From assembly GCA_007693965.1 (NCBI GenBank), contig RECQ01000046.1, forward strand, positions 1-64,000: 64,000 nucleotides of DNA. Reading direction: 5' to 3'. Below, piece by piece: positions 20,320 to 24,697 of the stretch; the first letter of the stretch is position 1; every line of letters starts with the position of its first letter. This DNA comes from Phycisphaeraceae bacterium (lineage in GTDB: Bacteria; Planctomycetota; Phycisphaerae; Phycisphaerales; UBA1924). A program made the translations under genes and the position numbers. A model generated the notes under the pieces. That model was given only the letters and a program-made list of their open reading frames with translations, had not been told where the DNA came from and made no database searches.

Positions 20320-20541
20320 ATGGCGACCAACCTTGACCTGGACGACCGACTGATCGAGGAAGCCCGCAAGGCCGGCGGCCACCGGACCAAAAAGGCCGCC
20401 GTCACCGCGGCGCTCAAGGACTATGTCCACCGGCGCAAGTCGCGTGAAGTGCTCGACATGTTCGGGCAAGTCGTCTACTGGCCCGACTACGACTACAAGG
20501 CCGCTCGCAGACGCGGACCCGGCGCCTCGCGATCCCGGTAA
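20320..20541 (+). CDS. vapB: VapB-type antitoxin
   Basis: This 73-residue protein opens with MATNLDLDDRLIEEARKAGG and continues with KKAAVTAALKDYVHRR, the pattern of short ribbon-helix-helix VapB antitoxins that bind DNA with the N-terminal part and wrap the toxin with the C-terminal tail. The stop is 8 bp before the vapC GTG. Sequence 20285-20310 (ACTCACACACTGGAGTGTGTAG, palindromic core CACAC..GTGTG) directly upstream is a plausible operator. The pair separates hutU from hutI. Confidence 0.88.
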   Translation: MATNLDLDDRLIEEARKAGGHRTKKAAVTAALKDYVHRRKSREVLDMFGQVVYWPDYDYKAARRRGPGASRSR

Positions 20542-20549
20542 CGCTCCGC

Positions 20550-20966
20550 GTGACGACCCTGGTGGACACGTCCGTCTGGTCGCTCGCGCTGCGGCGGCGG
20601 CCATCCGATCTCAACCGGCGCGAACGACGAGTCGTCGACAACCTGCGCCGTCTGATTGAAGATGGAGACGCCGCGATCATCGGGCCCATCCGGCAGGAAT
20701 TGCTCTCCGGCGTGCGCGATGAATCCCAGTTCCATCGCCTGCGTGAAACGTTCGGGCACTTCTCGCACATCATCATCGAAGACGCCGATTACGACGCCGC
20801 GGCGGAATGCTTCAACACATGCCGAAGCGCCGGCCTCGCTGCGACCGCGATCGACATGCTCATCTGCGCGGTGGCCATGCGCGTGGGGACCCGGCTCTTC
20901 ACCATCGATGCGGACTTTGACAGGTACGCGAAAGTCATCGGCCTGGGCCTGCACAAAGTCGCCTGA
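20550..20966 (+). CDS. vapC: VapC-type PIN-domain ribonuclease toxin
   Basis: This 138-residue PIN-domain nuclease keeps the acidic catalytic set: Asp in LVDTSVW, Glu in IRQELLSG, Asp in ATAIDMLICA and Asp in TIDADFD. VapC toxins cleave tRNA or rRNA when not neutralised by VapB. The GTG start at 20550 gives the family N-terminus MTTLVDTSVW. All four acidic positions are present, so it is probably active. The gene lies 8 bp after vapB and ends 71 bp before hutI. Confidence 0.92.
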   Translation: MTTLVDTSVWSLALRRRPSDLNRRERRVVDNLRRLIEDGDAAIIGPIRQELLSGVRDESQFHRLRETFGHFSHIIIEDADYDAAAECFNTCRSAGLAATAIDMLICAVAMRVGTRLFTIDADFDRYAKVIGLGLHKVA

Positions 20967-21037
20967 TGCTCGATCGCTCTCAGAGCCCCCCCCCGCATCG
21001 CCCGAGCGGCGCCAAAAGAAAGCTACCCTGTCCACCC

Positions 21038-22279
21038 ATGCCCATCCTCATCCAGAATGCCCGCGTCCTCACGCTCGACTCCGGCGCCATCCCCCGCCGC
21101 GGCTATGCCCTCGGGCTGCTGGCGCCGCTGGACCCTGGCGATGTGCTGATCGACGATGGCGTCATCGTCGCGGTCGAGCCGTCGATCCAGCGTGACGACC
21201 CGCGCTCGCCCACCTTCGTGGCGCCGGGGCAGCCCGTCGACATCGTCGAGGCCGGGGGGCGCGTGCTCATGCCCGCCTTCGTCGATGCGCACACGCACGC
21301 CCTGTGGGCCGGCGACAGGCTGGATGAGTGGGACCTGAAGCGCGGCGGGGCGAGCTACCTCGACATCCTCAAATCCGGCTGCGGGATCATGTCCACCGTG
21401 CGGGCCGTGCGCGAGGCCAGGCTGGGCCAGCTGCGCGATGCGCTGCTCGAACGCCTCTTCATCATGCTCAGCGAGGGGACGACGACGGTCGAGGTGAAGT
21501 CCGGCTACGGGCTGAGCACCGATGACGAGCTGAAGATGCTGCGCGCCATCGCCAAGGCCGCCAAGAAGTGGCCGGGCACGATCGTACCGACGGCCCTCAT
21601 CGGCCACGCCCTCGACCCCGAGCAGGACGATTTCATCACGCGCACGATCGACCAGACGCTGCCCGCCGTGCACGAAGAGTTCCCCGAGATCGCCATCGAC
21701 GCCTACTGCGAGAGCGGCGCCTGGTCGCTGGACGACTGCCGGCGCCTCTTCGAGAAGGCCGCGGCACTTGGCCACCCGCTGCGCGTCCACGCCGACCAGT
21801 TCAATGCGCTGGGCATGACGAAGCTGGCGATCGAGATGGGGTTTTTGTGTGTGGATCACCTGGAGGCGACGGGGCCGGAGGAACTCGCGGCGCTCGCCGC
21901 GTCGGACACATTCGGCGTGATGCTCCCCTGCTCGGGCTTCCAGGTGGACGATCGGTATGCGGACGGGCGCACGTTCGTCGACGCCGGCGGCGCCCTCGCC
22001 ATCGCCACCAACTGCAACCCCGGCTCGGCGCCGACATCGTCCATGCCCTTCGCCATCGCTCTCGCGGTGCGCAAGCTGGGGCTGAGCCCGGCGGAGGCGA
22101 TCGCCGCGAGCACCGTGAACGGCGCTGCGCTGCTCGGATTCGAAGACCGCGGCGCCATCGCGCCGGGCATGCGCGCGGACGTGGTCCTGCTGCGTCATCG
22201 GGATGAGCGGATGCTGGCGTATGAATTCGGGGGAAATCCGATGGAGCTTGTGGTGTGCGGGGGAGAGGTCGTCGGGTGA
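21038..22279 (+). CDS. hutI: Imidazolonepropionase
   Basis: This 413-residue amidohydrolase opens the imidazolone ring to give formiminoglutamate, the third step of histidine degradation. The metal-binding DAHTHALWAGDR lies near residue 80, with KSGYGL, the substrate loop EVKSGYGL and the later HADQFNALG and DHLEATGPEE blocks. The start MPILIQNARVLTLD at 21038 is where the fold begins; 24 upstream codons lack support. It belongs to the hut series although vapBC intervenes. No hutG or hutF gene is seen downstream; the next genes are on the opposite strand. Confidence 0.95.
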   Translation: MPILIQNARVLTLDSGAIPRRGYALGLLAPLDPGDVLIDDGVIVAVEPSIQRDDPRSPTFVAPGQPVDIVEAGGRVLMPAFVDAHTHALWAGDRLDEWDLKRGGASYLDILKSGCGIMSTVRAVREARLGQLRDALLERLFIMLSEGTTTVEVKSGYGLSTDDELKMLRAIAKAAKKWPGTIVPTALIGHALDPEQDDFITRTIDQTLPAVHEEFPEIAIDAYCESGAWSLDDCRRLFEKAAALGHPLRVHADQFNALGMTKLAIEMGFLCVDHLEATGPEELAALAASDTFGVMLPCSGFQVDDRYADGRTFVDAGGALAIATNCNPGSAPTSSMPFAIALAVRKLGLSPAEAIAASTVNGAALLGFEDRGAIAPGMRADVVLLRHRDERMLAYEFGGNPMELVVCGGEVVG

Positions 22280-22321: not shown

Positions 22322-22804
22322 TTACTTCCAATCGACATCCCTCTCAATTCCATCGATATTCCACGCTCCGGTGCACTCGGGACAGACAGCGCAGCCATCT
22401 GCTTGAGGCTCGATCGCGCGCAGGTCATTCCCGCAAGCGGGGCACCAGCCTGCTCTGAGCATATATTCAAAGTAGTGCTCGGATCGCAGAGCTGCACGAG
22501 CGACGAAGATGAATGTCAGGCCCGCGGCGGCTCCCGTAACTACAGCCCGTACGGCATAGCTCCCCGGCGGATTGCCAGTTGGCAGAACTTCCGTGATCGC
22601 TCCCGCCAGGCCTGCCAAGATAATGATGACGAAGACATACTCCCCCCTCATCATCACGTCCCGATGAATCTTGTTGTAATCATCCAGCGCGATGAACCCG
22701 CTCTGGTCGCCGCGATTCTTCACCGCTTTCCGGCTCAGCGGCAGGAAGGGAGCGCCTCGCGCATCTCGGAATCCCCCGCTGCCGTTGTGGTATGCCAGAC
22801 TCAC
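22322..22804 (-). CDS. Zinc-ribbon membrane protein, third of a coupled trio
   Basis: This 160-residue protein has a soluble N-terminal part, one or two central hydrophobic helices (around EYVFVIIILAGLAGAI and AAAGLTFIFVA), and a C-terminal zinc ribbon with cysteines in CPACGNDL and CPECTGAW separated by DGCAV. The start is a GTG at 22804 that overlaps the stop of the upstream gene as GTGA, so translation should be coupled. The ribbon is nearly identical to those of its two neighbours while the rest differs. Similar CPxCG..CPECG tails occur in many planctomycete membrane proteins; the function is unknown. Confidence 0.78.
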   Translation of the reverse strand: MSLAYHNGSGGFRDARGAPFLPLSRKAVKNRGDQSGFIALDDYNKIHRDVMMRGEYVFVIIILAGLAGAITEVLPTGNPPGSYAVRAVVTGAAAGLTFIFVARAALRSEHYFEYMLRAGWCPACGNDLRAIEPQADGCAVCPECTGAWNIDGIERDVDWK

Positions 22805-23334
22805 CGTGTCTCGCTCCCGATCGGTCGGCGCCCGGGGATCCGCCACGCCCCGCCGCACTCGGGGCAGATTGTGCAGCCGTCGCTCTCCGCCGGCAGATCC
22901 GCAAGGCTTCGGGCGCAGGACGGGCAGCGCTGTTCGGCCAGCATCGCCTCGGTCAGCAGGTCGGGCCGAAATCGCGGCATGCGGTGGCGGAGCGTGACGG
23001 CGAAGAAGATCAGCAGCAATGCGGCCAGCAGACGAATCGGGGTGTGGATCGGATCGCGTTCGAACACAAGATCGAAGGCGATCAGGAACAAGGCGACGAC
23101 AACGAACAGCCAGACCGCGTGCGGCGAGTGCGTCAGCGCGGAGCTCAGGTCGCGCATCACGAGCTTGTCGCGTATGCGCTTGAACTCTTCCGCTGGAAAG
23201 TCCGCTCGCTCCTGATGGTCCCGCCATCGCTCACTCGAGCAGTAGAGTGGGAAAAAGCGGCCCCGGCCGTCCTCGACGCTGGCGGGAGTATGCCCGAGAC
23301 ACTTGTCGATGAGATCGGCTATGAATGCGATCAC
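22801..23334 (-). CDS. Zinc-ribbon membrane protein, second of a coupled trio
   Basis: This 177-residue protein has a soluble N-terminal half with charged segments, two adjacent hydrophobic helices (near AVWLFVVVALFLIAFDLVF and RLLAALLLIFFAVTL), then a C-terminal zinc ribbon: CPSCARSLADLPAESDGC, then CPECGGAWRIPG. The GTG start at 23334 overlaps the upstream stop as GTGA. It overlaps the downstream gene in the same way. No enzymatic motif is seen; a zinc-dependent docking or folding module held at the membrane is inferred. Confidence 0.78.
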   Translation of the reverse strand: MIAFIADLIDKCLGHTPASVEDGRGRFFPLYCSSERWRDHQERADFPAEEFKRIRDKLVMRDLSSALTHSPHAVWLFVVVALFLIAFDLVFERDPIHTPIRLLAALLLIFFAVTLRHRMPRFRPDLLTEAMLAEQRCPSCARSLADLPAESDGCTICPECGGAWRIPGRRPIGSETR

Positions 23335-23804
23335 GCCGTCGCTCCTTCGATCTTCCCGGGAACTCTCCATGCCCCGCCGCACTCGGGGCAGATTGTGCAG
23401 CCGTCGCTTTCGGGCGTCATGTCCGCGATGCACTGACCGCAGGCGGGGCAGTTTTCGCCGCAAAGCGCGACAAACGTGAAATGTCGACGCGCGGGAATCC
23501 ATTTCTTCGCAATCCAAAAGTATCCGGCCGCGACACCTCCAATTGCTGCCCCAGCGATCGCATACTGTTCGATCGTACTGCTTGGTCTAAAAACCTCCAT
23601 ACAACTGATCCACACGAAGTATGCAATCGGCGTCCATGCGTACCGCCAGCACACGATCCAGGTCTTCAACGAGCACTGAGATTCAAAGTGCTGCCTGGTT
23701 TTGAATCGGGTGTTCTTGTCAAAGTCCGGCAGCGCATCCATCCAACCGTCGGCCGCTCGCCGCTCGCCTCGATGATCCGTGATGGTTGGTCGAAAGAATC
23801 GCAC
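23331..23804 (-). CDS. Zinc-ribbon membrane protein, first of a coupled trio
   Basis: This 157-residue protein has hydrophobic helices near residues 50-70 and 80-100 and a C-terminal ribbon, CPACGQCIADMTPESDGC followed by CPECGGAWRVPG. The start is a GTG at 23804 with a GAGGGG Shine-Dalgarno sequence nine bases upstream, the only member of the trio with a clear independent ribosome site; the other two rely on GTGA overlaps. This suggests fixed-ratio expression of three paralogues that share the ribbon but have diverged membrane parts. The map gene is divergent, 72 bp away. Confidence 0.75.
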   Translation of the reverse strand: MRFFRPTITDHRGERRAADGWMDALPDFDKNTRFKTRQHFESQCSLKTWIVCWRYAWTPIAYFVWISCMEVFRPSSTIEQYAIAGAAIGGVAAGYFWIAKKWIPARRHFTFVALCGENCPACGQCIADMTPESDGCTICPECGGAWRVPGKIEGATA

Positions 23805-23875: not shown

Positions 23876-24697
23876 ATGGCCCAGCTCATCACGCCATCCG
23901 AGGTCGATCAGGCCCACGCCGCGGCTCAGAAGGTTGTCGAGACGCACCGGCGGCTCGTCGAGTTTCTGCGCACGGGGCAGACGCTGGCGCAGATCGACGC
24001 CTTCGTCGCCGAGACGCTGCGCGACCTGGGCTGCCGCTCCGCCTTTCTCGGCTACCGCCAGGCGCGGACGCCCGCCTTCCCCAGCCATGCGTGCCTGAGC
24101 CTGAACGAGTGCATCGTCCACGGCACCGCGGGCATGACGACCGAGCCGATGAGGCCCGGCGACATTCTGAAGATCGACATCGGCGTGGTCTACCGCGGCT
24201 GGATCGGCGACGCCGCGTGGACATACGCCTTTGAGCACGCGAGCGACGAGGCCCGGCGCCTCATGGACTGCGGCAAAGAGTGCCTCCGCCGCGGCGTCGA
24301 AACCTTGAAGCCCGGCGGCGTGTACCTCGACTTCGCCCGGGCCGTGCAGGAGCACGCCGAGACCGAGTGCGGATTCCACTGCGTCCGCGGCCTCGGCGGC
24401 CACGGCTACGGCCGCAAGCTTCACGCGCCCCCCTACGTCGCCAACCACGCCCCCAGCTATCCCGGCGAGTGGCCAGACGCCTTCACACGCATCGAGCCCG
24501 GCACACTCCTCGCCGTCGAGCCGATGCTCGCGGCGGGCACGGCCGAGGTGAGCCAGCAGAGCCGCCAGTGGCCCGTCTTCACCGGCGACGGCTCGCTCAG
24601 TGTTCACTATGAGCACGATGTGTATGTGAGCGAGGACGGGCCGCGGGTTTTGACGGAGGGGTTGGAGGAGTTGGAGGATGTTGTGGGAAAGGGTTGA
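23876..24697 (+). CDS. map: Methionine aminopeptidase
   Basis: This 273-residue type I MetAP removes the initiator methionine from nascent proteins. Metal ligands are visible as Asp in KIDIGVV and Asp in WIGDAAW, His in GGHGYGRKLHAPPYV, Glu in AVEPML and Glu in HYEHDVYV. The substrate-recognition LNECIVHG is conserved. The start MAQLITPSEVD at 23876 suits the family. The C-terminus ends EDVVGKG, and the TGA stop is formed by the first unit of a GGGTTGA/GGGGTGA heptamer array. Confidence 0.93.
   Translation: MAQLITPSEVDQAHAAAQKVVETHRRLVEFLRTGQTLAQIDAFVAETLRDLGCRSAFLGYRQARTPAFPSHACLSLNECIVHGTAGMTTEPMRPGDILKIDIGVVYRGWIGDAAWTYAFEHASDEARRLMDCGKECLRRGVETLKPGGVYLDFARAVQEHAETECGFHCVRGLGGHGYGRKLHAPPYVANHAPSYPGEWPDAFTRIEPGTLLAVEPMLAAGTAEVSQQSRQWPVFTGDGSLSVHYEHDVYVSEDGPRVLTEGLEELEDVVGKG

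Follow-up and report, generated by a model that had tools for sequence, protein, structure and literature searches.

A candidate Phycisphaerales-specific family of membrane-anchored zinc-ribbon proteins encoded in tandem nests of variable copy number

Introduction

Three consecutive minus-strand genes lie at positions 22322 to 23804 of the window, the 64,000-nucleotide stretch of DNA from a Phycisphaeraceae bacterium (contig RECQ01000046.1, positions 1 to 64,000) that was analysed in this study. Their products end in almost the same zinc ribbon and carry membrane parts that differ. A preliminary description read them as paralogues made in a fixed ratio, sharing a docking ribbon and perhaps forming one membrane complex. 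The locus thus raises the question of whether the three genes are a fixed set, which parts of the proteins are really held in common, and what a tandem run of such paralogues might do.

Results

Organization of the gene trio

The open reading frames bore out the trio as it had been described, with lengths of 157, 177 and 160 residues on the minus strand. Gene 1 (23331..23804), gene 2 (22801..23334) and gene 3 (22322..22804) all start with GTG, and in their own genome they matched the family profile with E values of 3e-25, 3.8e-31 and 1.8e-24, respectively. The GTG starts of genes 2 and 3 overlap the stops of genes 1 and 2 as GTGA, by 4 nt at both joints, in agreement with the preliminary description. 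The profile search found three full family members in this genome, all of them within this run, which is more than expected by chance. The statement that only gene 1 has a good Shine-Dalgarno sequence was mistaken, since gene 2 carries AAGGAG 7 nt 5' of its GTG and pairs with the anti-Shine-Dalgarno sequence at -8.5 kcal/mol, which exceeds the -7.8 kcal/mol of gene 1, and the GGGAG of gene 3 reaches -7.0 kcal/mol. The 16S rRNA end of the same genome carries CCTCC. These strengths are unexceptional, as 10% of random 20-mers from the window reach -8.6.

Architecture of the proteins

All three proteins share the pattern CPxC-x16-CPEC-xGAW at the C-terminal end, and a C4 zinc-ribbon layout with two CxxC knuckles and short strands is predicted in each from the sequence and from the model of gene 2. 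The ribbon runs from C119 to W146 in gene 1 (CPAC-x16-CPECGGAW; 23367..23450, minus strand), from C137 to W164 in gene 2 (CPSC-x16-CPECGGAW; 22843..22926, minus strand; pLDDT 94-96) and from C121 to W148 in gene 3 (CPAC-x16-CPECTGAW; 22361..22444, minus strand). As had been claimed, the ribbons are nearly identical and the membrane parts are unlike, their 27-30% identity being background.

The ribbon is not the only shared part, as the preliminary description had supposed. An N-terminal DxRG motif, which that description overlooked, is a second conserved part; it occurs as DHRG at residues 10-13 of gene 1 (23766..23777, minus strand), DGRG at residues 22-25 of gene 2 (23260..23271, minus strand) and DARG at residues 14-17 of gene 3 (22754..22765, minus strand). 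The motif stands at -109, -115 and -107 residues relative to the ribbon in genes 1, 2 and 3, within a family range of 85-135. Of 119 related units recovered without DxRG as a filter, 86 have the exact motif, at a median of 112 residues ahead of the ribbon, whereas shuffled sequences have it at a rate of 4.0%; the rate of 86 in 119 is thus unbiased. In the family alignments the D, R, Cys and Trp residues are invariant and the membrane parts variable, the invariance of D and R being partly by construction because the alignments A1 and A2 were picked using the motif. The family unit therefore comprises a DxRG hairpin, a two-helix membrane hairpin and a ribbon.

The two predicted membrane helices between DxRG and ribbon are clear in gene 2 (residues 73-114; 22993..23118, minus strand; hydropathy 2.8 and 1.9; helices in the model) and in gene 3 (residues 56-102; 22499..22639, minus strand; hydropathy 2.3 and 1.8), and weak in gene 1 (residues 50-99; 23508..23657, minus strand), where the hydropathy is only 1.07 and 1.47. 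Two segments of hydropathy above 1.3 were found in 73 of 81 relatives. The flanks carry 0.20 and 0.21 Lys or Arg per residue and the loop 0.075, and this difference in charge places both protein ends, by prediction, in the cytoplasm.

The AlphaFold2 model of gene 2 had a mean pLDDT of 81.4 and a pTM of 0.67. The DxRG segment was modelled as a short hairpin (a predicted beta hairpin at residues 19-29 with the motif at its turn; pLDDT about 95 in residues 21-30), and both hairpin and ribbon reached a pLDDT of about 95. In a natural fusion of two units, the DxRG hairpin and the ribbon had a pLDDT of 90-96 in both halves, with a pTM of 0.57 and a linker pLDDT of about 45, and the model contained no packing between the units. 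The pLDDT values, taken by themselves, suggest that the DxRG hairpin probably packs onto the ribbon.

Distribution and family membership

Scanned for the ribbon pattern, 84,980 species genomes yielded 93 confirmed relatives; the 80 that were kept come from records titled Phycisphaerales, Phycisphaerae, Phycisphaeraceae, Phycisphaera, Planctomycetota or unnamed bacterium. Among the genomes searched, full-length matches were confined to Phycisphaerales/Planctomycetota. In the family to which the window belongs, 116 of 120 genomes matched the profile at 1e-6, many of these matches being weak and covering only the helices and a generic ribbon; many tandem copies were found in same-family genomes. 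Among the phylum genomes sampled outside the family, only 3 matched, weakly.

Genes 1 to 3 reached no family cut-off in Pfam or NCBIfam, and no single family of these collections matched more than 7 of 81 relatives, and those only when E values up to 0.01 were admitted. The best E value against solved structures was 0.051 by sequence, and the fold search gave nothing significant (whole protein: Foldseek PDB, best E 3.1; VIA-align, best Z 5.4, helices only). No PADLOC model matched gene 2, and four models each matched 1 of 81 relatives, which is chance level. No relative was found on viral contigs. The literature search returned no paper joining Phycisphaerales and zinc ribbon, and broader searches nothing relevant. 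Judged from their sequences, the DxRG/two-helix/ribbon proteins are a new lineage-specific family of predicted membrane-anchored zinc-ribbon proteins in tandem nests.

Tandem runs and chromosomal slots

Runs contained one to seven units, and 59 of 117 runs held 2-7. The joints in 105 non-redundant loci comprised 28 ATGA/GTGA overlaps of 4 nt, 27 fusions into one ORF and 49 otherwise close joints; the fused neighbour pairs have one unit order, and the 27 fusions fit physical pairing of neighbours. Three-gene runs recur, including GTGA-coupled ones: at least three separate genes stood in a run in 17 of 83 genomes. Many genomes have single units.

The units occupy a few recurrent slots. In 20 of 20 purF loci, 1-5 units stand directly behind purF; further slots are the interval from mutS to an aldo/keto reductase gene, with 1-4 units, and the position behind ugd, with 1-2. 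The slot loci were found through family members, and these counts therefore say nothing on the frequency of empty slots. Slot labels cluster on the unit tree, with 20 changes against 53.2 in shuffles. In the window, the slot is bordered by the divergent map gene, encoding an M24 metallopeptidase (23876..24697, plus strand; Pfam PF00557, E 2.4e-38), and by the convergent hutI, encoding an imidazolonepropionase-like amidohydrolase (20966..22279, plus strand; Pfam amidohydrolase). The same order of map, unit(s) and hutI was found at four other loci, with one unit in L153, L157 and L158 and a two-unit fusion in L073, and at L065 two fusions, or four units, lie beside map. Among 60 further family genomes, 9 had a unit upstream of map, and many had map and hutI adjacent with nothing between. 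The empty slots include that of G102, the closest genome among those found when ranked by map protein (73%) and not by a genome tree. Across genomes the map-hutI slot thus holds 0, 1, 2 (fused), 3 or 4 units, which makes the trio of the window one copy-number state of a variable nest and not a conserved three.

A VapB-like antitoxin ORF (20320-20541, plus strand) and a PIN-domain, VapC-like toxin ORF (20550-20966, plus strand), both named from sequence, sit between hutU and hutI, within the histidine-degradation genes.

Sequence evolution

In close ortholog pairs dN/dS lay mostly between 0.1 and 0.5 for the membrane part and between 0.03 and 0.3 for the ribbon, and it was below 1 in every pair tested; the pairs are under purifying selection and are not decaying. 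The trio might have been a peculiarity of this genome, with unrelated neighbours and decaying frames in its relatives; instead, runs and slots recur and selection is purifying. A GTGA-coupled trio is conserved behind purF in L098, L143, L146, L060 and L133. Comparison of L098 with L143 gave 41% identity for its first member, 48% for the second and 94% for the third, rates which argue against an obligate complex evolving jointly. On the unit tree the window genes lie on long end branches, without supported neighbours.

The ribbons of genes 1 and 2 (23367-23450 and 22843-22926) share a 38-nt identical DNA run, the membrane parts being unrelated in sequence, and 15 of 19 synonymous choices in these ribbons are common. 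Gene conversion of the ribbons was considered. Adjacent units shared synonymous codons at 0.635, against 0.575 for units lying apart in one genome (permutation p 0.008; the pairs are not independent of each other); this is only slightly above the same-genome background and allows weak local conversion at most.

Other ribbon arrays in the same genome

With a ribbon-only profile and an E value limit of 0.05, the window's genome gave 52 matches. At least 27 of its about 50 CxxC..CPEC ribbons fall in seven tandem arrays: C13 (at least 7), C70 (5), C14 (5), C18 (3), C12 (the window trio), C54 (2) and C17 (2). A ribbon of similar kind is found on at least four other membrane architectures. C13 (L254 2964-13737) consists of seven tandem genes of about 470-510 aa with the ribbon between two N-terminal helices, and a further ribbon match lies just upstream. 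C70 (L252 662-4361) is a tandem quintet with about four helices and a C-terminal ribbon; C14 (L255 2263-7390) is another, with an N-terminal ribbon, about six helices and two joints that are 4-nt overlaps. C18 (L007 3396-4973) is another trio, whose proteins have the ribbon at the C-terminus and a YPELALF-like motif at the N-terminus; its genes one and two overlap as ATGA.

Discussion

The explanation preferred here, to which we give an even chance, is that the genes encode co-translated, membrane-anchored zinc-ribbon adaptors with a shared cytosolic head, whose neighbours are able to pair and whose number is a local copy-number state. The trio would be one such state of a Phycisphaerales-specific family. 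Each protein may insert a two-helix hairpin into the membrane with both ends cytoplasmic, where the DxRG hairpin of the N-terminus and the ribbon of the C-terminus probably come together in one small head. The three genes would be carried by a single mRNA and their translation would be coupled. The conserved head may be the working surface, a docking or pairing face common to the paralogues, and through the diverged membrane hairpins each paralogue probably has a membrane partner of its own. Neighbours could pair, as in the natural two-unit fusions, without an obligate fixed trio, and tandem duplication would underlie the gain and loss of genes at a few conserved slots. The mechanism itself, pairing and docking of the cytosolic head, we regard as about equally likely to hold or to fail. 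The weak membrane segments of gene 1 count against this explanation, as do the fusion model without packing between units and the housekeeping neighbours purF, mutS, ugd, map and hutI, which give no functional hint.

The original proposal, an obligate three-subunit membrane complex in which translational coupling fixes a 1:1:1 ratio, draws on the two GTGA overlaps of the window and on the coupled trio conserved behind purF in several genomes. It now appears improbable, because the number of units at a given slot ranges from 0 to 5 (1-5 behind purF, 0-4 at map-hutI), so that neither a fixed trio nor a fixed ratio is conserved, because single units stand in many genomes, and because one member of a conserved purF trio kept 94% identity against 41% and 48% in the others. 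These unequal rates fit better with non-pairing tandem duplicates, each with its separate membrane client and all using one cytosolic partner of the ribbon in common, as do membrane parts at background similarity (26-28%) beside ribbons that hold 50-57% and the similar ribbon on other membrane architectures of the same genome. The 27 fused pairs of neighbours, which have one unit order, suggest a use of physical coupling, and wholly independent paralogues are considered a credible but rather unlikely account. Variable copy number, together with membrane parts that change fast in some of the members (dN/dS about 0.5), could also recall a diversifying immunity, defence or variable-surface array with membrane parts in an arms race and a ribbon that is kept. 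This we consider very improbable, as dN/dS is under 1 wherever tested, any given PADLOC model matches 1 of 81 members at most, neither toxin nor defence genes were seen beside the slots and no phage relatives were found.

The preferred explanation, that of membrane-anchored adaptors able to pair, concerns an undescribed protein family whose full-length members were found in a high proportion of the sampled genomes from one planctomycete family, and the anatomy, the motif, the conserved slots and the natural fusions make pairing and docking directly testable. Furthermore, ribbons on varied membrane architectures make a shared docking role attractive. That the ribbon is a lineage-wide docking tag, by which arrays of several unrelated architectures, with 2, 4 and about 6 helices and the ribbon at either end, dock to one common cytosolic partner, is an improbable extension in our judgement; if true, the tandem arrays would be modular attachments of variable membrane anchors to a Phycisphaerales-specific shared machine, and the ribbon would point to a new cytosolic machine in a poorly studied bacterial order.

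The C18, C70, C13 and C14 arrays resemble the window family in the kind of ribbon (CGYDLxGL...CPECG), in membrane helices and in tandem arrangement. Unlike the window family, their proteins have no DxRG that could be seen, and their ribbons lie C-terminally after two or four helices, N-terminally before about six, or between two N-terminal helices. Among described domains, the likeness to PF13453 (Zn_ribbon_TFIIB), PF08271 (Zn_Ribbon_TF) and PF12773 (DZR) consists in the two CxxC knuckles and the ribbon length; gene 3 matched PF13453 with an E value of 0.0027 and 17.5 bits, under the gathering cut-off of 22. These three models are without the DxRG hairpin, the membrane hairpin and the CPECGAAW end, whereas the family described here has all of them.
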